NCBI GenBank assembly: GCA_903921455.1
Contig: CAIXPZ010000309.1
Span: forward strand, 1 to 40,454
Length of the DNA: 40,454 nucleotides
Direction of reading: 5' to 3'
Source of the DNA: an uncultured Verrucomicrobia subdivision 3 bacterium
GTDB taxonomy: Bacteria; Verrucomicrobiota; Verrucomicrobiae; Limisphaerales; UBA11358
The position numbers and the translations under genes are program-made. The notes beneath the pieces are model-generated. The model was given only the letters and a program-made list of their open reading frames with translations, was not told the origin of the DNA and did not search any database. Shown here piece by piece: positions 7,358-40,454 of the stretch (positions are counted from its first letter, which is position 1; each line of letters begins with the position of its first letter).

Positions 7358-10300
7358 ATGTTGGCGGCAGTGTCTCCCCAAAAACTTTCAGCGCGCACCC
7401 GGCGGGCGGCTGGCTTCTGGCTGGTGCTGGTCTGCTTGTTCTTCGCGCGGGGCCGGGTCTCGGCGGATTCGGCGGATTATCTGGTGGACGGCTGGGACAC
7501 GGAAAATAATCTGCCGAGCAGCACGGTCACCTCCATCGCCCAGACGCCGGACGGCTATCTGTGGGTCGGCACTTACAACGGGCTGGCGCGGTTTGACGGC
7601 GCGCGGTTCGTGACGTTCGACCCGGTCAATACGCCGGAGCTGACGCAGACGCGGATTCAGGGTCTGTTTCTCGATGCCGGCGGCACGCTCTGGATCAACA
7701 CCTTTCGCGGCGGCCTCACGTCGTATCGCGGCGGTGTATTTCGCAATGAATTGCCGGACCGGCCCCAGTATGACCTCCACAACAACCTGGTTTATTCCTC
7801 GACCAATCAGGTCCTGTTCGTGACCCAGTTCGGCGACGTGCTTGGGCGCGATCCTGCCGCCACCAACACCGCCTGGAAGACGGTCATGCCGCCGGCGGGC
7901 TCCCGCCCGATTTTCCACTGCGTGGATGCGGCCGGGACGCTGTGGTTTTTGACGCGCGACGGGCACATCCTGCAGTTCCGCCGCGGCGCGTTTCAGGAAT
8001 TGCCGGATGATGGCGGCTTGGCGGGCAGCCGGATTTACACGCTGGTGGCCGATGCGCAGGGCCGGGTCTGGGCCGGCGCGGAAAATGAGATCGCCCGCTG
8101 GAATGGGACGCAGTTTGAAGCGATGACCCCCACGAATGGCGTGGCGGATGTGCAGCCGTTGCTGTTGTTCCCGACCCGGGCAGGCGCCTTGTGGGTGCTG
8201 GACGGCGACCGGCTGCGCCAGATGGTCGGCCGCGCCTGGGTGACGGAGGCGGTGCCGTGGCGCGGATTGCTGGGCTCGGCCTCGGGGCGCGCGATGGGTG
8301 TGCATGAGGATCGCGCGGGCGGTCTGTGGTTTAATCACTACGGCAACGGCCTGTTCCACATCACGCCGGACGGGCGTTACGAGCGCATCACCACGCAGAA
8401 CCACCTGCCCGGCGACCGCGTGGGCGCGTGGTTTGAGAGCCGGGATGGCGGCATCTGGGCGGGTGTGGATCACGGCGGCCTGGCGCGGTTGCGGGACCGG
8501 TGGTTTCACGTCGTCGGCTCCGCGGAAGGCTTGCCGGCGCGGACGGCGCTGTCGGTCAGCGGCGACACCAACGGGGCGGTCTGGATCGGCACGGCTGGCG
8601 GCGGCTTGTGCCGGTGGAGTGAGGGGAAAATCTCCCGTTACACCGTGGGCAATAGCGCCTCCGCCAACTTTATTTTTTCCATCGCGCCCCGGGCGGATGG
8701 CGGCGCCTGGCTGAGCGCGTCGGAGGGCGAGGATTTGTTTCAATTGCTGGACGGCCGCATCCAGCGGGTGTCGTGGGATGTGCACGGGATCAAATCCATT
8801 CTGCTGGACCGGCAGAACCGCCTGTGGATGGGGCTCAAGACGGGCCTGGCCCGGTGGGTGGGCAATGACCGGCAGGTCTGGAATGTCAGCGGTACGGGCG
8901 TCATGCCCGCGATCCGGGCGCTGGCGGAAACGCCGGACGGCGATGTCTGGGCGGGCGCGGATGACGGCTCGATTTTCCGTTGCACCCCCGAAAAACTGGA
9001 AGCCTTCCGCGCGACCGATGTGCTGGCCGGCCAGCCGATTTATGCGCTCCACGCGGATGCCTCGGGTGCGCTCTGGGCGGGGACGTTTCGCGGCGGGCTG
9101 CTGCGGTTCAAGCATGGCAAATTTTCCCGCATCACGGCCGCGCAGGGCCTGACGGCGGATGTCATCAGCCAGATTCAGGAGGATGATCAGGGCCGGCTTT
9201 GGCTGGGCACGCATCAGGGGATTTTTTGCGTGAGCATGACCGCGCTGAACGACTGCGCGGACGGGCTGGCCACCTCGGTGGATTACGTTGCCTACGGCCG
9301 GCATGACGGACTGCCGGCGCTGGAATGTTCCGACGGCTATCAGCCGGCGAGCTGGCGCGGGCCGGATGGTAAATTGTGGTTCACCACCGTGCGCGGTGCG
9401 GTGTGGGTGATCCCGGATGAGGTGAAGGTGAAGTCGGCCCCGCCCCCGGTCTTGGTCGAGGAGTTCCGCGTGGACGGCGAACCGGTGCCATTGGCCGCCG
9501 GCGACCCTGTCGTGCCGCCGGGTCATGGACAATATGACTTCCGTTTTACCGCGCTTAATTTCGACGCCGGCGAGCGGGCCCGGTTCCGCTATCAGTTGGA
9601 GGGTTTTGATTCCGGCTGGGTGGACGCGGAGACGTTGCGCACGGCGCATTACGCTCATTTGCCGCCGCGCGATTATCGTTTTCATGTGATCGCCTGCAAC
9701 AAGGAGGGCGTCTGGAACAACATCGGGGCCACCGTGGCTTTTTCCGTGAAGCCGTATTTTTACCAGACCAACTGGTTTTTGTTCCTCGCCGGTGCGTTGG
9801 TGATCGGCGGCGTGTCCGTTGCCGTCCGCCGCGCGGCCACGCGGAAATACCGCCGCAAGCTGGCGCTGCTGGAGAAGCAGCACGCGATTGAGCGCGATCG
9901 CGCTCGCATCGCCAAGGACATCCATGACGACATCGGTGCGGGGCTGACGCAGATCACGCTGCTGACCGAGCTCGCGCGGCGCGAGCCGGCGCAGACGGAC
10001 GCGAATCTGGAGCGCATCACCCATTCGGCGCGCCTGCTGACCAAGGCCATGGATGAAATCGTGTGGGCCGTGGATCCGCAGCACGACACGATCGCGGGGC
10101 TGATGGACTATGTGTCCGCCTACGCGGAGGATTATTTGCGCGTGGCGAACGTGCGCTGCCGCATGGATCTGCCCATGGAGCTGCCGGCCACGCGGGTGGA
10201 CGCGGAGTTGCGCTATAATTTGTTTCTCGCGTTGAAGGAGGTGTTGAACAACATTGTCAAGCATGCTCAGGCCACGGAGGTTTGGTTGCGGCTGCGGCTC

Positions 10301-10552
10301 GCGCCGGGTCGGCTCACGCTGGCGATCGAGGACAACGGTCGGGGCTTGCGGGCGCCGGCCGGCGCTGCGGGCGCGGAACGCCTCTCCTCCGGCTCCGGTT
10401 TGGGCAATCTGGAGAAACGGCTCGCGGCGGTGGGCGGCCGGTGCGAGATTCACAGTGATGCCGGCCGGGGCACGCGGGTGGAGTTGACGGTGTTTCTCAA
10501 AAAGGCCGCATCGCCAGTTGTGGCGATTGGCACGGACGCACCGGTGGTCTAG
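7358..10552 (+). CDS. Propeller-type membrane sensor histidine kinase (HisKA_3)
   Basis: This is a transmembrane sensor kinase of 1064 aa. After an N-terminal export/anchor segment (FWLVLVCLFFARG), residues about 40-690 form a periplasmic seven-bladed-type two-component propeller. It has many repeats of the DGYLWVGTYNGLARFDG kind (GRVWAGAENEIARW, GGIWAGVDHGGLARL, GDVWAGADDGSIFRC, GRLWLGTHQGIFCV). A Y_Y_Y domain follows (RFRYQLEGFDSGWVDAE; about 690-800), then one TM helix (about 805-825). The cytoplasmic part has HisKA_3 with the phospho-acceptor H856 in RIAKDIHDDIGAGLTQ, and an HATPase domain with the N-box LKEVLNNIVKHAQ, IEDNGRGL and GSGLGNLEKRL. The start at 7358 directly precedes the signal segment. 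A response-regulator gene follows after 20 bp. Propellers of this type in Bacteroidetes bind glycan fragments; here the ligand is inferred to be a pectin fragment. Confidence 0.93.
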   Translation: MLAAVSPQKLSARTRRAAGFWLVLVCLFFARGRVSADSADYLVDGWDTENNLPSSTVTSIAQTPDGYLWVGTYNGLARFDGARFVTFDPVNTPELTQTRIQGLFLDAGGTLWINTFRGGLTSYRGGVFRNELPDRPQYDLHNNLVYSSTNQVLFVTQFGDVLGRDPAATNTAWKTVMPPAGSRPIFHCVDAAGTLWFLTRDGHILQFRRGAFQELPDDGGLAGSRIYTLVADAQGRVWAGAENEIARWNGTQFEAMTPTNGVADVQPLLLFPTRAGALWVLDGDRLRQMVGRAWVTEAVPWRGLLGSASGRAMGVHEDRAGGLWFNHYGNGLFHITPDGRYERITTQNHLPGDRVGAWFESRDGGIWAGVDHGGLARLRDRWFHVVGSAEGLPARTALSVSGDTNGAVWIGTAGGGLCRWSEGKISRYTVGNSASANFIFSIAPRADGGAWLSASEGEDLFQLLDGRIQRVSWDVHGIKSILLDRQNRLWMGLKTGLARWVGNDRQVWNVSGTGVMPAIRALAETPDGDVWAGADDGSIFRCTPEKLEAFRATDVLAGQPIYALHADASGALWAGTFRGGLLRFKHGKFSRITAAQGLTADVISQIQEDDQGRLWLGTHQGIFCVSMTALNDCADGLATSVDYVAYGRHDGLPALECSDGYQPASWRGPDGKLWFTTVRGAVWVIPDEVKVKSAPPPVLVEEFRVDGEPVPLAAGDPVVPPGHGQYDFRFTALNFDAGERARFRYQLEGFDSGWVDAETLRTAHYAHLPPRDYRFHVIACNKEGVWNNIGATVAFSVKPYFYQTNWFLFLAGALVIGGVSVAVRRAATRKYRRKLALLEKQHAIERDRARIAKDIHDDIGAGLTQITLLTELARREPAQTDANLERITHSARLLTKAMDEIVWAVDPQHDTIAGLMDYVSAYAEDYLRVANVRCRMDLPMELPATRVDAELRYNLFLALKEVLNNIVKHAQATEVWLRLRLAPGRLTLAIEDNGRGLRAPAGAAGAERLSSGSGLGNLEKRLAAVGGRCEIHSDAGRGTRVELTVFLKKAASPVVAIGTDAPVV

Positions 10553-10572
10553 TTTGCTGGATAACCAATTTC

Positions 10573-11232
10573 ATGAGCATTGCCGTTTCCATAGTTGAGG
10601 ACGATCCGCAGGTGCGGAGCAGTCTGGCCAGGCTGATTGACGGCGCCCCGGGCTTCCGGTGCGTGAGCCGCCATGGCAGCGCGGAGGACGCCCTGGCGGA
10701 AATCCCCAAGGTGAAGCCGGAGGTGGTGTTGATGGACATCAACCTGCCGGGCATGAACGGCGTCGAATGCGTGCGGCGCTTGAAGCCGCAGTTGCCGGGT
10801 GCCCAGCTGATCATGCTCACCGTGTATCAGAATACGGAGCACATCTTTAACGCGCTGACGGCGGGGGCCACGGGCTACATGCTCAAGCAGACGCCGCCGG
10901 CGGAATTGCTGGCGGCCATCAAGGAGGTTCATGGCGGCGGTTCGCCCATGAGCAGTCATATCGCCCGGAAGATCGTGCAGTCGTTCCAGCAATCGGCCCC
11001 GGCTTCGGCCGAGGCGCAGAGCCTGTCGCCGCGCGAGGCGGAGGTGCTGGATCTGCTGGCGAAGGGTTTTCTCTACAAGGAGATCGCCGAGCAGATGAAG
11101 GTGAGCTATGCCACCGTGCATACGCACATCCGGCACATCTACGAAAAACTCCACGTCCGTTCCCGCACCGAGGCGGTGGCCAAGCATCTCGGCCAGAACC
11201 GCCCCCGCCGCGAGTTGGAGCCGAGCCGTTAG
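10573..11232 (+). CDS. NarL/LuxR-type response regulator
   Basis: This is a DNA-binding response regulator and the likely partner of the preceding HisKA_3 kinase (20-bp gap, same strand). The receiver domain occupies residues about 3-120, with the acidic pocket E9-D10-D11, phospho-acceptor D55 in VVLMDINLPGMNG, conserved T83 (MLTVYQ) and K105 (GYMLKQT). The C-terminal LuxR helix-turn-helix (about 148-205) shows LSPREAEVLDLLAKGFLYKE and SYATVHTHIRHIYEKLHVRS. Length (219 aa) is typical. The gene is convergent with the end of the polysaccharide-degradation cluster, which makes that cluster its most likely target. Confidence 0.95.
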   Translation: MSIAVSIVEDDPQVRSSLARLIDGAPGFRCVSRHGSAEDALAEIPKVKPEVVLMDINLPGMNGVECVRRLKPQLPGAQLIMLTVYQNTEHIFNALTAGATGYMLKQTPPAELLAAIKEVHGGGSPMSSHIARKIVQSFQQSAPASAEAQSLSPREAEVLDLLAKGFLYKEIAEQMKVSYATVHTHIRHIYEKLHVRSRTEAVAKHLGQNRPRRELEPSR

Positions 11233-11242
11233 TCTGGCTCGG
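11221..11242 (+). terminator. Hairpin at the end of the response-regulator gene
   Basis: A perfect 7-bp inverted repeat (CCGAGCC / GGCTCGG) with an 8-nt loop spans the response-regulator stop codon and lies in the 26-bp space before the convergent DUF4450 gene end. There is no T-tract, so intrinsic termination is uncertain. The symmetrical position between converging genes makes a shared transcription block plausible. Confidence 0.35.
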
Positions 11243-11258
11243 GCGCCCCGGTGTGGTG

Positions 11259-14200
11259 TTAGCGCGCCAGCGTCGCGCTCATCAGCCCGATCACCACTTC
11301 ATTCGCCAGCGCCCGCACTGTGAGTGATTTCAATTCTTTCGCCTGATCCAGCGGCAACTCCAGCACGGTCGCCGCACCGCCGTCCACCTTGCCGCCGTAG
11401 CCTTTGGACTCGAGTCGCTCGGCGCCGGCCGCTTTGATTCCATGGTTTTTGACCTCCGCGACCGCCTGGAGGCGCACCTTGCCGGTCTTTAAATCCACCC
11501 GGGGCGGGATCGGCTCCGGGCGCCGGAAGGCGTAGTCATCGATGAAATAATCCTGGTCAATCGGCCACCAGGTCGTCGGGTTGCGCAAGGGGAGCCGCGC
11601 GGTCGCGCCGTCCGTGTAGGTGACGATTACTTCGCCGTTGTCGAACTGGCTTTGCATGGCGCTGGTCGAGCCGGCCATCAGCAAATAGACCTGCGCGGCC
11701 TTCCCGCTCAAAGGCACCGTGAGCTCGCGCGGGTAGTTGTCCCATTGCGAGGTGAACGCGATGTTTTTTGCGTCACCCGCACCCGGAGTCTGCAGCGGGA
11801 TGCCGTTGGGCAATACGAGTCGATCATGGTTTTTAGCGGCCACCTTCCGCAATCCGGTATCATCCACCAAGAAAGTCTCCTGGGGATGGCACCAGCTGCC
11901 CAAGCCTTGGCTCGGCATCGCCAGCGAACAAAAAGGCGAGCGGGGCGAGCGATATTCATTTTTAAAGATTTGGGTGACTTTGTCGTTGAAGAACGGCGAG
12001 AGATTGATGGGTTCACATTGATCGGGGGAAGAGATTTTTTTGTTCCAGTCAATGGCCTTGGCCGGTGGCGCTTCCTGTTTCGCGGCGATGGCCTGCAAAT
12101 CCGCCGGGAAAATGGGCGCCGGCTCGCCGCCCTGCCAGGTCACGACGATTTCCGTTCGCGCCGCCGGCGCAGATCCGACTTCCAGTCTCCTCCAGCCGAT
12201 TCCGTTCCAGGTTGATTTCGCTTCCTGCCCGTTGACGGTCACGCTCGCCACGCCGTCCCGCCACGCGGCCATTTGCAAACGCAACTGCATCGGCTTGGAA
12301 AATTTTTGTTCGATGACGTAAGTCTCTTTCCCGCCGTCGCGCTGGAATGACAAATTAAAATCCGGATGCTGGAGGCTTGCGTGTTCCCATGTCGCGGGGA
12401 AGTTGGGTTGCACGATGAGTTCGCCGGCCAGGGCATCGGGTTTGACTCCGAATAGTCCTTCGATCAGTGCGCGCGCCGTGGCGCCGACCCCGTCGGCAAA
12501 GTCCCGCTGCGCTTCGCGCCGGGCGATGTCGAACTGCGTGCACATGCCCACGTTGCCGGGACATAACCCCATGAACATGCTGTCGAGCAGGCAGCCTTTG
12601 AACAGGCGCATCGCGTCGTCGCGGCTGCCGGCCTGCCAAAGCGCCAGCGCCGTGTGCGCCGATTCCGCCATCACCACATTGTTAAGCGACCAGGTATAGG
12701 GCATCCAGCTCGTCGTCGGCATGGTGAAAAGCTGCTCATCCGGCACGTGGTCGCCCTGGATCGGGATATGCACCATCTGCGTGCTGACGTAGCGGCTCAT
12801 CTGCCACGCCTCGAGCGGGGTCGGGACTTCGGAATCCACCGTGTGATAGAACGTCCACAGCGCCGGATTGGGATGCACGGCCTGGCGGCCGAGCAGGTCC
12901 TTCGCTTCGGCGAACGTTCCCTGGTCGGGCAGCCACAGGTATTGACGCATCGCTTGGGCGATCAGGCCGGCTTCGCGCTCATAGGGCTTCGGGTCTTCAC
13001 CGAGCAGCTTCGCCACGCGGGCGGCCATCCGGTTATGGTAAAGATTCAGCGCGGTGGCATGCGTGGCTCCGCCCCCGTTGTAAGCCAGATCGTCGCTCGC
13101 CCAGATGCAGCAATAAGCCTCGTAAAGCGGCAGTTTGTCCGGGCCGAATTCGCGGCGGAACAGTCTCCGTTCCCACGCGAGGTGCCGCTCGATCGCCGGC
13201 CACATTTGTCGCGCATAATTCGTGTCGCCGGTCCACCGCAGGTGGCGGAACAAAATGTCCACCGCCAGCAGGTTCATGTCGTAGTGCGAGTTGCTGAGGT
13301 CGCCGTTGGAATGCAGCGCCGGCTCGTTGCGTGCCAGTCGCGCTTTGTCGCTGTTGTCTGGCGGGACCCGGGCCGGCTCGCCGGTCTGCGCGGCGGGAAC
13401 CGGGTTGGTGTTTTGTTTGGGAAACCAGTTCGTCAGATGTTCGCGGGTGCGCTCGTGCCAGCCGAGCGCATCGCCCGAATAGCCGCCGCGCCAGCCGAGC
13501 AGCTTGACGCGCCACGCGACCGCGCCGTGCATGAATGACTTTTCTTTGGTGTCCCAGACGGCATCCGCCGCGATACACAGCGCGGCGGCGGCGGCGTTGA
13601 GGAACGGGTCGGGGGTGTCCACGACGATCTTCCCGGCAATGTTCTGGCGGTGACGTTCGGCTTTTTCGAAAAGCGCCGGCCCATCGAAGGTTGCTGGTTC
13701 TGCCGTGCGGAGCAGCGCGAAATACACCGGCTCGCCCGGCTTCAGCGGAGCTTCCGTCACGGCCACCGGCAGCTTCGGGGCCGATTTGCCGGCCCCGGCC
13801 AGCAGCCCGGCCAGCGAGTTCCAGTTCGCCCCCTCGGCCAGCGATATTTTCGCGCGGGCGGACGACACGCTGCCGCTAACCGTGCCGGGTTTGCTGCGCA
13901 ATGTGAAAGCGCCGTCGTGAACGGTGATTTCATTGCCCCGGCAAAACTCCGGCTGGAACTGGAAGAATTGGCTCACCGGCACTTTTTCGCAGCCGATGTC
14001 GCCCCACCGGTCGCCCTTGTCACCCTTGGCTCCGCCGTAAACGAAAATGAGTTCAAGTCCGCTCGCATCTCCCTGAATCTCGGCGCGGAGGATCAGGCCC
14101 GGGGGTTCACTGGCGGGAATCGCCGTGAGTTGCAGCATCGCCTTGTCGCCGAGCATCGGATCACGGATTTCGTAAATCATTGAGCCGGGGCGATAGCGCG

Positions 14201-35340: not shown

Positions 35341-38300
35341 ATGCCGAAGCGGGAAGTTCAGGATTTTATTTCGCATTGGTCAGCGGCCAGTCCATCCGAA
35401 CGGGCAAATTCACAGCCGTTCCTGATTGAGCTTTGCGATCTGCTGGACGTGCCGCGTCCCGACCCGCACCCGGCCAACGGCTATTTTTTCGAGTTTCCCG
35501 TCGAGGAACATCATCCCGACGGCACCACCAGCATTGGCCGAATTGACCTTTATCGGCGTGCCTGTTTCGTCCTTGAATCCAAACAGTTTCAGGAGGCCAA
35601 GGCCAAAGCCTCACAGCTTGAACTCGCCGCCGAGGAAACCGGATTGTTCAGCCGCAAAAAATCTTCCCAACCCGTGCGCGGCACCGATGCCTGGGATGAA
35701 GCGATGATCAAGGCGCGTGGACAGGCCGAGCGCTACATCCGCGCTATTCCCGATGACAACCCGCCGTTCATCATCGTCGTGGATGTCGGCCACTCGTTCG
35801 AGTTGTTTGAAGATTTCTCGCAGGCCGGCAAAACCTACCGCCCGTTTCCCGACCCGCGCACGTTCCGCATCCGGCTTGCCGATCTCGCCGACGAAAAAAT
35901 CCGCGAACGGCTCCGCCTCATCTGGACGAATCCCGCCGCGCTCGACCCGTCGAAACATTCCGCCGATGTCACCCGCGAAGTGTCCGGCCATCTCGCCGAA
36001 CTCGCCAAGTCGTTGGAACTCGCCGGCCACGAACCCGACATCGTCGCGCAATTTCTCACGCGCTGTTTGTTCTGCATGTTCGCCGAGGATGTCGAGTTAT
36101 TGCCCAAAAACAGTTTCACGGAACTGCTCGAATCACTTCCGGCGACCGGCGAAGGCTTCGTGCAAAAAATCCGCACCTTGTTCGAGGAAATGCAGAAAGG
36201 CACGGATTATTCCGTTGTTTTGAATCGCAAACTGCTTCGATTCAACGGCGGTCTTTTTGAAAACTGCTCCGTCCTGCCCATTAACGGCCTGCAATTGAGC
36301 CTGCTCAAAGAAGCCGCCCGCCAGAATTGGGGCAACGTCGAACCCGCCATTTTCGGCACGCTGCTTGAACGCGCCTTGAATCCCGACGAACGCCACCAAC
36401 TTGGCGCGCACTTCACCCCGCGCGCCTATGTCGAGCGCCTCGTTTTGCCGACCGTCATTGAACCGCTCCGCGCCGAGTGGGAACACGTCCGCGCCGCCGC
36501 CCTCACGCAAGCCCGCGCCGGCAACCTGAAAAAAGCCCGCGCCGAGGTGAATACGTTTCACGAAAAATTATGCCGGTTGGTAGTGCTTGATCCCGCGTGC
36601 GGCGTTGGCAATTTCCTTTACGTCTCCTTGCAGCATCTAAAAATTCTGGAAGGTGAAGTCCTCGATTTCGCCGCGCAGTTTGGCGACACCTTCAAACTTG
36701 AACTTGCCACCAACACCATTGACCCGCACCAATTTCTTGGCTTGGAAATCAATCCTCGCGCCGCCGCCATCGCGGAACTGGTTTTGTGGATTGGCTACCT
36801 GCAATGGCATTTCCGTTTGCACGGCAAACGCACGCCGCCCGAACCGATTTTGCGGGCGTTCAAAAATATCCAGTGCCGCGACGCCGTGCTCAAATACGAC
36901 GGCGAACCGCAGCCCGCGCGTGACCAGGCCGGAAAGGTAATAACTGTGTGGGATCGGCGCAGCCAAAAAACCGACATGGTGACAGGCCGCAAAGTGCCAG
37001 ACGAAACCAAGCGCGTGCCGTTGCTCACCTACGCCAACCCAAAGCCCGCCGAATGGCCGCAGGCCGATTTCATCGTCGGCAATCCGCCGTTTATCGGCAC
37101 GGCGCGAATGCGGGAAGATTTGGGCGACGGTTACGCCGAAACGCTCCGCGCCACTTATCCCGACGTGCCGGAATCCGCCGACTTCGTTTTGTATTGGTGG
37201 CACAAGGCGGCGGAGCTTGTCCGCACCGGCAAGGCGCGGCGCTTTGGCCTCATCACCACGAACAGCTTGCGCCAGACTTTTGCGCGCCGCGTGGTGCAGG
37301 CGCAATTGTCCGCCCAGCCGCCGCTGTCGCTGCTCTTTGCCATTCCCGATCATCCGTGGGTGGACACGGCGGAAGGTGCTGCCGTGCGGATTGCCATGAC
37401 CGTCGGCGCGGCGGGCAAATGCCCCGGCGAACTGTTGGAAGTGACCGGCGAGGAACCGCAGCCCGACGGTTCGGAAAAAGTTTCGTTCAAGTCCCATCCC
37501 GGAATAATTTCTGCCGACCTCACCACCGGCGCAGACGTTAGCAGTGCGGTTTCGCTAAATGCAAATGACGGCTTGAGTTGTCCCGGCGTGAAACTTCACG
37601 GCTCTGGCTTCATAATCACGCCAGACGAAGCCAAAGGACTTGGCCTTGGAAAAATTCGCGGTTTGGAAAAGCACATTCGCCCATATCGCAACGGCAAAGA
37701 CCTCACAGACGAACCGCGCGGCTCGATGGTGATTGATTTGTTTGGCCTGACAGTTGATGTAGTGCGCGAGAAATTCCCGGCAGTTTATCAGCACGTTCTG
37801 ACTCGCGTGAAGCCAGAGCGTGATGCAAATAACCGCGCCACTTATCGAGATAATTGGTGGATTTTCGGCGAGCCGCGCAAAGATTTAAGACCAGCTCTTA
37901 TTGGTTTGCATCGCTACGTCACAACGGTTGAAACTGCAAAACACCGTTGGTTTGAATTTCTTGGCGAAGAAATTTTGCCCGACAACCGCTTGATTGTTTT
38001 TGCGACAGAGGATGCTTTTCATCATGGCGTATTGAGCAGCCGGATTCACGTCACATTCGCTTTGGCCGCAGGCGGCACGTTGGAAGACCGACCCGTTTAC
38101 AACAAATCACGCTGCTTCGATCCGTTTCCATTCCCGCTTTGCGGCGAGGTAGAGAAAAATTCAGTCCGCAAACTGGCGGAGGAATTGGACGCCCACCGCA
38201 AGCGCGTCCAAGCCCAGCACGGACTCACGCTCACCGGCCTTTACAACGTCCTGGAAAAAATCCGCGCTGGTGAAAAACTCACCGACAAGGAAAAAATCAT

Positions 38301-38781
38301 TCACGACGCCGGCCTCGTCTCCGTCTTGAAACAGTTGCACGACGACCTCGACGCCGCCGTGTTCGCCGCCTACGGCTGGCCGGCCACATTGACCGACGCG
38401 GAAATTCTTGAACGGCTCGTCGCCTTGAACGCCGAGCGCGCCGCCGAGGAAAAGCGCGGCATCGTCCATTGGTTGCGCCCGGAGTATCAGGCCAAAGGCC
38501 AGGCGGAAATGATTCTGCCCGCCGGTCAGGACAAGCCGGCGAAAAAGACCAAGACAAAAAACGCCGCGCCCGCCCGCGCCGCAAAATCTGCATGGCCGAA
38601 AAAAATGGCCGAGCGCGTGCAGGCGGTGGAAACCGCCTTGCATCATTTCGGCGCAGCCGCGACGCCCGGCGACTTGGCAAAGTTATTCAAACGCGCCGAA
38701 CCCGCCGACGTGGCGGAAATCCTCGAAACGCTGGTGACGCTTGGCCGAGCGCGCAAACAGGGTGAAAAATTTTCGCGATGA
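35341..38781 (+). CDS. MmeI-like single-protein restriction-modification enzyme
   Basis: This 1146-aa protein combines an endonuclease, an adenine-type DNA methylase and a specificity domain, as in MmeI-like (type IIL/IIG) enzymes. A PD-(D/E)xK nuclease motif is visible near the N-terminus (D69 and E79-S-K81 in RIDLYRRACFVLESK). A helical spacer follows (AGHEPDIVAQFLTRCLFCMF; FGTLLERALNPDERHQLGAH). The methylase has SAM motif I at D417 (LDPACGVGNFLY) and the catalytic N581-P-P-F (FIVGNPPFIG). Residues about 735-940 should be the target-recognition domain, and a Lys-rich linker leads to a C-terminal winged-helix-like segment. The start at 35341 is chosen because family similarity begins there; in-frame sequence from 35104 looks non-coding. 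No Shine-Dalgarno is visible. It is a stand-alone phage-defence enzyme with two small genes following. Confidence 0.9.
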   Translation: MPKREVQDFISHWSAASPSERANSQPFLIELCDLLDVPRPDPHPANGYFFEFPVEEHHPDGTTSIGRIDLYRRACFVLESKQFQEAKAKASQLELAAEETGLFSRKKSSQPVRGTDAWDEAMIKARGQAERYIRAIPDDNPPFIIVVDVGHSFELFEDFSQAGKTYRPFPDPRTFRIRLADLADEKIRERLRLIWTNPAALDPSKHSADVTREVSGHLAELAKSLELAGHEPDIVAQFLTRCLFCMFAEDVELLPKNSFTELLESLPATGEGFVQKIRTLFEEMQKGTDYSVVLNRKLLRFNGGLFENCSVLPINGLQLSLLKEAARQNWGNVEPAIFGTLLERALNPDERHQLGAHFTPRAYVERLVLPTVIEPLRAEWEHVRAAALTQARAGNLKKARAEVNTFHEKLCRLVVLDPACGVGNFLYVSLQHLKILEGEVLDFAAQFGDTFKLELATNTIDPHQFLGLEINPRAAAIAELVLWIGYLQWHFRLHGKRTPPEPILRAFKNIQCRDAVLKYDGEPQPARDQAGKVITVWDRRSQKTDMVTGRKVPDETKRVPLLTYANPKPAEWPQADFIVGNPPFIGTARMREDLGDGYAETLRATYPDVPESADFVLYWWHKAAELVRTGKARRFGLITTNSLRQTFARRVVQAQLSAQPPLSLLFAIPDHPWVDTAEGAAVRIAMTVGAAGKCPGELLEVTGEEPQPDGSEKVSFKSHPGIISADLTTGADVSSAVSLNANDGLSCPGVKLHGSGFIITPDEAKGLGLGKIRGLEKHIRPYRNGKDLTDEPRGSMVIDLFGLTVDVVREKFPAVYQHVLTRVKPERDANNRATYRDNWWIFGEPRKDLRPALIGLHRYVTTVETAKHRWFEFLGEEILPDNRLIVFATEDAFHHGVLSSRIHVTFALAAGGTLEDRPVYNKSRCFDPFPFPLCGEVEKNSVRKLAEELDAHRKRVQAQHGLTLTGLYNVLEKIRAGEKLTDKEKIIHDAGLVSVLKQLHDDLDAAVFAAYGWPATLTDAEILERLVALNAERAAEEKRGIVHWLRPEYQAKGQAEMILPAGQDKPAKKTKTKNAAPARAAKSAWPKKMAERVQAVETALHHFGAAATPGDLAKLFKRAEPADVAEILETLVTLGRARKQGEKFSR

Positions 38782-38814
38782 AAGCGTAGGTTGATTGCCA
38801 AAGTTCTTAAAAAT

Positions 38815-39672
38815 ATGAGAATCCCTGAAGATGTAAAAAAATGCGTCGTTTATTTTGGGTTTGAAGTCAGTGAAGGCGCAAACCGTAAAAGAAAATACGG
38901 GGGGACCGGGTTTTTGATTGTTATGCCTTCAAAAATCCAAGGTGCGAGCTTTTTGTTTTTGGTAACGGCCAAGCATGTTGTTGATAAATTAAGTGGCAGG
39001 AATGTCTATATCCGAGCGAATACCAAAGATGGAAAATCACAGGAACTCAAGATTTTGGACAATCAGAAATGGTATTTTCATCCAACTGACAATGCCGCCG
39101 ACGTTGCTCTAATTCCTGTTTTTTTACCTCAAGAATTTGATTTTTTACCGATTCCATCAAGCATGCTTTTGGCAGAAAAGGTTAGGTTGGACAGCGGGAT
39201 CGGTATCGGAGATGAAGTTTTTATCACAGGGCTTTTTGTTCATCATGTCGGCCATGCAAAAAATCTTCCAATCGTAAGAACTGGCAATATTGCCATGACC
39301 CCAGATGAAAGGATTCCAATAAAGGATTTTGGGATGATGGAAACTTACTTGATTGAAGCTCGGTCAATAGGTGGTTTGAGCGGTTCTCCAGTATTCGTAA
39401 TAGAGCATAAAGAAAAGCAAAGGACTTTGTTTTTAATGGGGTTGATACATGGCCATTGGGATATTCCTTCTGAAAGTCTTATTGATGATATTTCGCACGA
39501 TGCCGGCGCAAGGGCGGGAGTAAATGTTGGGATTGCAATTGTTACGCCAGCTTCAAAAATCTTGGATATTCTAACCAGTGATGAAATGCGAAAAATGATT
39601 GAAGAACTCGAAGCGGCAGACATCGCCAAAAGTTCGCCAGCCTCTGACAAAAAAAACGTGCGCGATTTATGA
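38815..39672 (+). CDS. Trypsin-like serine protease
   Basis: This is a 285-aa cytoplasmic protein with a chymotrypsin-fold protease pattern. The N-terminal barrel begins with YGGTGFLIVMPSK and the catalytic triad candidates are H54 (LVTAKHVVDKL), D96 (NAADVALIPV) and S189 (SIGGLSGSPVFV, the GxSGSP equivalent of GDSGGP). There is no signal peptide or PDZ domain, and the C-terminal 30 residues are helical and charged. The ATG at 38815 is preferred to a TTG at 38791. The gene begins 33 bp after the RM gene and overlaps the HNH gene by 4 bp. Base composition is clearly more AT-rich than the RM gene. Stand-alone cytosolic proteases of this type occur in anti-phage systems as effectors or activators; that role is inferred here. 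Confidence 0.8.
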   Translation: MRIPEDVKKCVVYFGFEVSEGANRKRKYGGTGFLIVMPSKIQGASFLFLVTAKHVVDKLSGRNVYIRANTKDGKSQELKILDNQKWYFHPTDNAADVALIPVFLPQEFDFLPIPSSMLLAEKVRLDSGIGIGDEVFITGLFVHHVGHAKNLPIVRTGNIAMTPDERIPIKDFGMMETYLIEARSIGGLSGSPVFVIEHKEKQRTLFLMGLIHGHWDIPSESLIDDISHDAGARAGVNVGIAIVTPASKILDILTSDEMRKMIEELEAADIAKSSPASDKKNVRDL

Positions 39673-40325
39673 CTAACCAATGCGCTTATTGTGGTGATGC
39701 CGGAATCGTCACAAGAGATCACGTTCCTCCAAAGGGCATCTTTCCAAAACCTCGGCCAGCCAACCTTATTACTGTCCCGGCTTGTCCGAAATGTCACAGT
39801 CAACAAACTTCAAGGGATGATGAATACTTCCGCAATACTCTGAATGTCCGTGAAGACCTTTCCCAACACCCAGGAGTATTAAAGGTTCAACCTATTGTGT
39901 TGCGCTCGTTTTCCAAACCGAACAAATCAGGAATGCTCGCCGATTTTTTGAAAAGCATTCGTCTTATGGAGCAAGTTACGCCCGCTGGAATCATCGCTAA
40001 AAACAAATTGGGTTTTGAAGCGGACATGGTCAGGATAAGGCGAGTTGTTCAGCGCATTGTAATTGGTCTTTTCTACCATCACAGACAACACAGAATTCCT
40101 GCCGGCTATGACGCGCTCGTTTTTAACGAAGAAAGCCTTGAGGCATGGCCTGCCGATTATTTGAACTATGTTACCAAGACCTTAATACAACCATTGCTGG
40201 CGACCAAAGCTGAAATGCGCGGCAATGGTGTATTCTCTTACAGATTCGCATTTCATCCAGCAGACCCGGATTCTACATTTTGGATTTTGGATTTTTATGA
40301 GCGCGCTCGTTTTGTATGCGGCTGA
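39669..40325 (+). CDS. HNH-nuclease-like zinc protein
   Basis: This 218-aa protein starts with a compact HNH-type module: C5-x2-C8 (CAYC), D17-H18 (TRDHVPPKG), N32-L33 (ANLITV) and C39-x2-C42-H43 (CPKCHS). This matches the DH...NL...CxxCH pattern of HNH endonucleases with a structural zinc. The remaining 160 residues are unrecognised and may bind the target or a partner; they include basic stretches (MVRIRRVVQRIVIGLFYHH). The start codon lies within the stop of the protease gene (ATGA), so the two are translationally coupled and probably act together. Like the protease gene it is AT-rich. Loss of nuclease function cannot be excluded, since some HNH-like zinc modules only bind nucleic acid. 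Confidence 0.75.
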   Translation: MTNQCAYCGDAGIVTRDHVPPKGIFPKPRPANLITVPACPKCHSQQTSRDDEYFRNTLNVREDLSQHPGVLKVQPIVLRSFSKPNKSGMLADFLKSIRLMEQVTPAGIIAKNKLGFEADMVRIRRVVQRIVIGLFYHHRQHRIPAGYDALVFNEESLEAWPADYLNYVTKTLIQPLLATKAEMRGNGVFSYRFAFHPADPDSTFWILDFYERARFVCG

Positions 40326-40371
40326 CGGTCCACGCCTAGTTTCCGCCGATGGCCTATGAGACCATGGCCAG

Positions 40372-40454
40372 ATGGAAACATCAAAAACTGAAACCGGCCA
40401 GCGACGTTTAACTTCTAAACAGCGGCAGCGATTGCTGGCAAAATTTTACCAAAG
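40372..40454 (+). CDS. Probable IS66-type transposase orfA, N-terminal fragment
   Basis: A reading frame starts at 40372 and runs off the window end. The visible 27 residues, METSKTETGQRRLTSKQRQ followed by RLLAKFYQ, match the opening of IS66-type TnpA (helix-turn-helix) proteins, which typically read RRRFTxxQRQQLLAxF. Only the first part of the DNA-binding region is visible. The left inverted repeat of the element should lie within 40326-40371, but I could not identify it. It marks a mobile element directly next to the putative defence cassette. Confidence 0.55.
   Translation, partial: METSKTETGQRRLTSKQRQRLLAKFYQ

Follow-up and report, generated by a model that had tools for sequence, protein, structure and literature searches.

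Tuck et al. (2025, Science; PMC12799240) described, in the accessible part of their article, nuclease-protease pairs in Hachiman (HamM/HamA), AVAST, Lamassu and DRT, together with caspase-nuclease (canu) loci. Activation of a metallo-beta-lactamase (MBL) nuclease by its trypsin-like protease partner has been experimentally established, according to the same part of that work (PMC12799240). Moreover, the excerpted text of PMC13373217 presents CapP as a protease activated by single-stranded DNA, which cleaves the CapH repressor and turns on immune operons. We analyzed here a locus in which a gene for an MmeI-like restriction-modification (RM) enzyme is followed by the genes of a trypsin-like serine protease and of a predicted HNH nuclease, at the 3' end of a 40,454-nucleotide stretch of DNA (hereafter the window) from an uncultured Verrucomicrobia subdivision 3 bacterium (assembly GCA_903921455.1, contig CAIXPZ010000309.1). 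We tentatively suggest that the RM gene is probably a separate unit, and that the protease and HNH genes could form a two-part phage-defence switch, in which the predicted protease would control the predicted HNH nuclease.

Arrangement of the three genes

The RM gene (35341..38781, plus strand, as are the other two) encodes a complete protein of 1146 amino acids (aa), which matches the PADLOC type IIG model PDLC03627 with 1520 bits over residues 5-1142. The Pfam domains MmeI_N, MmeI_hel and MmeI_Mtase score above their cut-offs and MmeI_TRD just under it (24.9 versus 27 bits), so that the N-terminal, helical spacer, methyltransferase and target-recognition parts of MmeI-like type IIG enzymes are all present in a single chain. 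A spacer of 33 bp (38782..38814, plus strand) leads from its stop codon to the ATG of the protease gene (38815..39672, 285 aa). The ATG of the HNH gene (39669..40325, 218 aa) lies inside the protease stop codon, generating a 4-bp ATGA overlap (39669-39672). Regarding base composition, the fraction of guanine plus cytosine (GC) is 0.579 in the RM gene, 0.41 in the protease gene, 0.455 in the HNH gene and 0.595 in the window; as the RM gene differs little from the window as a whole, only the protease and HNH genes stand out as AT-rich. Both the overlap and this shared AT-richness, as compared to the RM gene, support considering the last two genes as a pair. An initial annotation, made from the sequence alone, had reported the same gene order and spacings, the three catalytic residues of the protease and the AT-richness of the last two genes relative to their surroundings, and all of these hold.

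The protease start at position 38815 is shared by an identical public protein (P0001), and two homologues from metagenome sources, P0002 and P0003, are 96% and 89% identical. Its catalytic triad, composed of H54 (38974-38976), D96 (39100-39102) and S189 (39379-39381), or H62/D104/S197 when counted from a TTG start, is invariant in 34 of 34 sequences (alignment A2), and the structure model displays the double beta-barrel of the trypsin fold. No signal peptide was recognized by eye, and the protein is predicted to be cytosolic. It consists of the protease domain alone, with no fusion to HamA, Avs1a or LmuA according to Pfam and PADLOC. It matches the PADLOC candidate-defence model PDC-S45 with 62.8 bits (residues 14-208, approximately two thirds of the model), and LmuA with 31 bits. 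PDC-S45 is named as a hypothetical defence component in prophages in the available part of PMC12429752, and this phage-defence candidate would be the best defence label for the protease.

The HNH protein contains two putative zinc-binding cysteine pairs (C5/C8 and C39/C42), together with H18, N32 and H43, which in our own reading of the sequence are likely to be the H-N-H residues. In an alignment of 48 sequences (A1), D17, H18, C39 and C42 are invariant, while C5 and C8 are conserved in at least 90%. The structure model, with a predicted local distance difference test (pLDDT) score of 92, shows a strand-strand-helix order (strands 15-19 and 34-38, helix 45-60), the unit in which the cysteine pairs and the H-N-H residues are found. 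The Pfam HNH score stays under the curated cut-off (18.9 versus 21.4 bits), and the match to PtuB in PADLOC is marginal (14.6 bits). Outside the nuclease unit, no usable match was obtained in PDB or BFVD, which does not indicate a new fold.

Orthologues of the RM protein were searched for in 145 genomes from the phylum of L044, a Verrucomicrobia metagenome-assembled genome (MAG). Matches were obtained in 34 of the 145, with just three full-length orthologues (L127-L129, 53-56% identity). Regions of 11-18 kb around these three (L157-L159) contain neither a protease nor an HNH gene, and the same was true of the other RM-matching loci fetched, from which two RM fragments (L160 and L161) were dropped as the gene caller recovered no RM gene there. 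In L159, a HicA-HicB toxin-antitoxin pair (9873-10627) begins approximately 24 bp after the RM stop codon, if its earliest possible start codon is used, and occupies the place that the protease and HNH genes have in the window. Since the close orthologues lack both genes, and one of them carries HicAB instead, the RM gene is best interpreted as a unit of its own, with a 3' side that can take up different cargo.

Genes preceding relatives of the HNH protein

Scanning species genomes with the HNH alignment yielded 71 loci, each retrieved together with flanks of up to 8 kb; in 66 of them, the HNH gene itself was called by a simple gene finder. In 21 of these 66, a same-strand upstream open reading frame (ORF) ends no more than 20 bp away or overlaps the HNH gene, when the earliest possible start codon is taken. 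Operon-like neighbours were then defined as proteins of at least 100 aa encoded on the same strand and no more than 100 bp away, and all 45 of them, from 37 loci, were scanned. The resulting numbers are raw counts and apply to the families listed (25 of 34 for Pfam and 25 of 179 for PADLOC). Pfam families found were M78 peptidase (three times), AAA_21 and Hypoth_Ymh (twice each), and TIR, ThiF, HsdS, HNH, DUF6161, trypsin-with-Sel1 and serpin (once each). PADLOC models matched were capP, AbiLi and mad3 (three times each) and PD-Lambda-3_B (twice); AbiLi and mad3 are ATPase models, which may also catch ordinary ATPases.

A CapP-type gene directly precedes the HNH gene in three of the 71 loci (L041, L043 and L048). 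Full-length matches to capP were obtained for the M78 proteins of L041 and L048 (206 and 217 bits, PADLOC), the third capP among the 45 neighbours is in all likelihood that of L043, and the HExxH motif is kept in all three. As L041 and L043 are near relatives, the CapP-HNH arrangement represents two lineages, and not three. Among neighbours chosen individually for scanning, other genes found before HNH-family genes encode E2 and E1 (L058), a TIR protein (L012), an AAA_21 ATPase that matches PtuA with 34.5 bits and AbiLi with a far higher score (L066), and a match to the candidate PDC-S42 (L037, 360 bits). Overall, genes of the HNH family often lie directly downstream of defence-type genes of various kinds, CapP in three loci among them, in the manner of a portable module, which supports the pairing proposed here; the gene order of the window is that of CapP and HNH, but with an unrelated serine protease.

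In the CapP-containing loci (L041:6197-9137, L043:6197-8609 and L048:1460-3895), the run of genes is composed of a 195-219-aa gene, a short gene, the CapP-type protease gene and the HNH gene, to which L041 adds a 164-aa gene; L058 has a near-identical 164-aa gene after its HNH gene, behind the E2 and E1 genes. The 195-219-aa gene gave weak helix-turn-helix or sigma-type hits under the cut-off in L041, and none in L048. These runs may represent a defence operon not yet described, in which the front end can be exchanged. The Sel1-trypsin gene found behind the HNH gene in L060 was considered as a counterpart of the window protease and rejected, as no significant similarity was detected (E 0.076) and its N-terminus looks signal-like by eye; we would guess that one trypsin among 45 neighbours may be due to chance. 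In addition, in a Terriglobia MAG (L014:8700-10067), a full gene for a serpin, a protease inhibitor, is located 39 bp behind the HNH-family gene.

Relatives of the protease as mobile cargo

The protease alignment was searched at an E-value of 0.001 in samples of eight groups, with some genomes counted in both a phylum and a class sample, and matched 6/387, 4/350, 5/247, 6/246, 7/197, 1/64, 11/171 and 6/169 genomes. With two viral contigs included and the window excluded, 12 distinct protease loci scored at least 100 bits. Four of these 12 are IS1595-family transposons of approximately 2-3 kb (L091:7563-9606, L092:8115-11127, L095:8604-10804 and L162:6964-8907), in which the transposase gene is convergent with the protease gene, and both are enclosed by terminal inverted repeats with the sequence GGTAATTATCCC or near it. 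Perfect 8-bp target duplications were found in all four (TTCGTCTA, CCGATTGG, AATTCGCT and AAGACCCG); allowing the same freedom, 8/8 matches occurred in 4 of 2000 random placements. The transposases match NF033547 with 203.5 bits (L162) and 213.2 bits (L091), against a cut-off of 75, and DDE_Tnp_IS1595 in L091, L092 and L095. A NYN-domain gene lies between the transposase and protease genes in L092, the protease being alone in the other three. In a fifth locus (L094, 6523-9307), the protease relative is a cassette of an integron, with an integrase matching TIGR02249 (442 bits, cut-off 265) and attC-like sites, detected with our own search pattern, at 8312-8385 and 9232-9307, on either side of the protease ORF (8401-9210). 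The remaining seven loci, and relatives below 100 bits, have no transposon or integron in view. PDC-S45 also matches the mobile relatives of L091 (50.4 bits) and L094 (46.7 bits), the two that were scanned.

Within the IS1595-borne set, pairwise identity is 47-60% for the transposases and 26-37% for the proteases; the transposases being more alike than the proteases, either the cargo evolves more rapidly or it was acquired on more than one occasion. In the tree, the four IS1595-borne members need two changes, which is no fewer than with shuffled labels, and L092 and L095 are long branches; judged from these sequences, a single origin of the four proteases may still apply. By simple pattern, the five mobile relatives keep the serine motif in 5/5, the histidine motif in 4/5 (not caught in L092) and DVA in 4/5 (NVA in L095). 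It is generally known that IS1595-type elements can carry passenger genes (PMC5704250, in the part consulted, citing Siguier et al. 2009), while a protease as IS1595 cargo was not named in the titles or abstract openings of the literature surveyed. IS1595-borne protease genes occur in genomes of two phyla, to which the Chloroflexi MAG L003 and the Terriglobia MAG L011 belong, pointing to a mobile gene group with a putative selectable role. Just outside the IS1595 element of L095, positions 11158-11913 encode a protein that looks HNH-like by eye (CVFC...EHIW...CRACNN), with no match in Pfam (E 0.01) or NCBIfam.

For the window protease itself, an origin as IS1595 cargo was rejected, as the best terminal inverted repeat score was 15/25, the same as elsewhere in the window, and no transposase was present among the called genes. 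An origin as integron cassette was also rejected, no convincing attC site being found nearby; within the protease gene itself, a single attC-like hit (-19.4 kcal/mol, versus -47.3 and -52.0 for the L094 sites) was taken as chance. Scans for repeats, terminal inverted repeats and attC sites detected neither an IS1595-type terminal repeat nor an attC site in the spacer between the RM and protease genes. Moreover, the protease and HNH proteins matched none of 50,697 phage records (E 1e-5), plasmids gave distant partial matches alone (two for the protease and four for the HNH protein), and viral contigs yielded three protease loci, one of which is a 55.6-bit fragment, and one HNH locus; with the L091 protease as query, no match was obtained in viral contigs. 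Elsewhere in the window, the minus strand holds a long run of genes (11259-34829) that by eye looks polysaccharide-degrading, with rhamnosidase-, glycosidase- and beta-galactosidase-like products, which suggests a host of Verrucomicrobiota type.

Possible roles of the locus and comparison with known systems

From the data above, we infer that the protease-HNH pair was acquired apart from the RM gene, that its two products work jointly under the control of the protease, and that the outcome is defence. The protease would take the place held elsewhere by TIR, ATPase, E1-E2 or CapP genes, and would restrain or release the HNH nuclease on infection; the released nuclease would then cut DNA, resulting in defence. 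By analogy, the protease-nuclease idea is plausible, building on this one locus and on the parallel CapP arrangement.

Several results weigh against it. A protease or RM relative was found in 0/71 HNH-family loci, whose HNH relatives share no more than 39% identity in matches covering most of the protein, closer homologues not being among them. Conversely, no HNH-family or RM gene was present among the called genes in view of the 12 protease loci of at least 100 bits, four of which (L163, L164, L165 and L096) have the gene no more than 0.8 kb from a contig end, L163 and L096 matching the profile partly. The protease was also missing from 12 of 12 HNH-carrying genomes searched. As an indirect comparison, no contig of equal size was shared between 50 HNH clusters (contigs of at least 4 kb) and the 120 protease clusters listed, and across all clusters listed (120 of 2675 for the protease and 116 of 129 for HNH) equal sizes were observed for 1067 and 1803 bp alone, taken as chance. 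The overlapping protease-HNH pairing was thus seen once (n=1). The initial annotation had regarded RM, protease and HNH as one system and had proposed co-occurrence as its test. The result was negative in all reachable loci (0/71 HNH loci, 0/12 protease loci and 0/3 RM orthologues), which is strong but incomplete evidence, as closer HNH homologues lie outside the set, and the one-system claim is not supported.

The HNH side contributes further points of this kind. Neighbours of its relatives include plain genes (dihydroxy-acid dehydratase, GatB, ABC-F ATPase and fatty-acid desaturase), some tightly coupled neighbours match nothing (L061 and L040 in PADLOC, L006 in Pfam), and the CapP-HNH spacing ranges from an overlap to 8 bp, according to which start codon is taken. 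The window holds no evident sensor gene. The monomer model of the HNH protein has no disordered gating loop (0 residues with pLDDT <50), other gate types being possible, and no insertion special to it was seen by eye in alignment A1, relative to protease-free relatives. Moreover, the window protein ends in FVCG*, while its relatives P0121-P0124 and P0134 extend further into a conserved tail; in P0134, the approximately 127 aa before the divergence are identical, and are followed by GQTVPPVKTV. Identity to the window protein is 64-87% for P0121-P0124 and P0128. Because close relatives continue past this point, an insertion at about 40314 has probably truncated the 3' end of the HNH gene, removing the last ten or so residues, and this copy may be damaged at its C-terminus. 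The sequence from the divergence point onwards (40314..40454, plus strand) would represent the end of an insertion element. The initial annotation had placed a probable IS66 element here, which could not be substantiated: the 145-bp tail had no match among plasmid records, and its 27-aa reading none in NCBIfam.

Alternatively, the two genes could be accidental neighbours, a solitary mobile cargo protease and a solitary defence-type HNH gene gathered 3' of the RM gene, with an incidental overlap and each protein acting alone. The lack of co-occurrence in both directions (0/71 and 0/12) agrees with this, as do the protease relatives found alone in three IS1595 transposons, with a NYN gene in L092 and as one integron cassette, the different insert (HicAB) at the same side of an RM orthologue, and the insertion-like sequence directly 3' of the HNH gene. 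However, the ATGA overlap and the similar low GC of both genes speak against it, and HNH relatives often stand tight behind an upstream gene (21/66), which is a CapP-type protease in three loci. We consider this alternative a real possibility, on an even footing with the proposed protease-nuclease switch.

Two other scenarios appear far less probable. Genes of toxin-antitoxin pairs commonly follow an antidote-then-toxin order with an overlap, and the protease and HNH genes fit such an order; together with the mobile-cargo habit of the protease family, this could suggest an addiction module carried by mobile DNA, in which the protease would degrade a toxic HNH nuclease or the HNH target. Nevertheless, protease relatives occur with no HNH-family gene in view, and so do not constitute a dedicated antidote family, and HNH relatives are evidently tolerated without the protease, making this scenario unlikely. 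Even less likely is a three-gene restriction system, in which the RM enzyme would cut first and the protease-HNH pair would serve as a backup effector when restriction fails. The common strand and the spacings of 33 and -4 bp are consistent with it, but the close RM orthologues (53-56% identity, L157-L159) have neither gene behind them, the GC content of the RM gene differs from that of the pair, and no other three-gene locus was found among those examined. Altogether, the idea of a protease-controlled nuclease module, already put forward in the initial annotation, stays plausible in view of the precedent of Tuck et al. and of the CapP-HNH order in 3/71 loci, whereas its role in one system with the RM enzyme does not.

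If the protease-nuclease switch applies, a broader and more doubtful extension would be that the HNH nuclease module comes repeatedly under the control of unrelated proteases (CapP-type in Bacteroidota, trypsin-like here), with the serine protease as free-ranging immune cargo of IS1595 elements and integrons that could be plugged into different nucleases. The parts list of bacterial immunity would then gain a family of proteases mobilized as cargo of transposons and integrons.

Among the titles and abstract openings surveyed, with subscription journals thinly covered, none reported an HNH gene together with a trypsin-like protease standing alone. Regarding described systems, membership in Lamassu was rejected, since the LmuA match is 31 bits and Pfam finds no ATPase domain, as expected for an LmuB-type partner, in any of the three genes. 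PtuAB (Septu) resembles the locus insofar as the HNH relative of L066 follows an AAA_21 ATPase gene, but the window unit is devoid of an ATPase. PDC-S45, of which the window protease matches approximately two thirds, is a single-gene candidate that includes no HNH gene. IS1595-family transposons with passenger genes (tIS) hold relatives of the protease, while the window copy has neither repeats nor a transposase in view. The likeness to CapP/CapH resides in the CapP-type M78 gene that directly precedes the same HNH family in L041, L043 and L048; as far as the excerpts of the CapP work go, CapP is an M78 (IrrE-type) peptidase cleaving a repressor, whereas in the window the protease is an unrelated serine enzyme and no repressor gene was detected.

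The closest comparison is with the pairs described in the accessible part of Tuck et al. In common are a trypsin-like protease gene adjoining a nuclease gene, a proposed proteolytic control and parts that are horizontally mobile. The nuclease of those pairs has an MBL fold and is typically encoded upstream, whereas that of the window is of the HNH type and is encoded downstream; their protease is fused to HamA, Avs1a or LmuA, whereas that of the window stands alone, with no sensor fusion; and their pro-nucleases have a disordered loop near the active site, whereas no gating loop was seen in the HNH model. As no disordered loop was seen in the monomer model, no special insertion by eye and no sensor fusion of the protease, we do not file the pair as a member of that family, although, by analogy, it may work like one. 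If so, protease-gated nucleases would represent a general design in bacterial immunity, extending beyond MBL nucleases.

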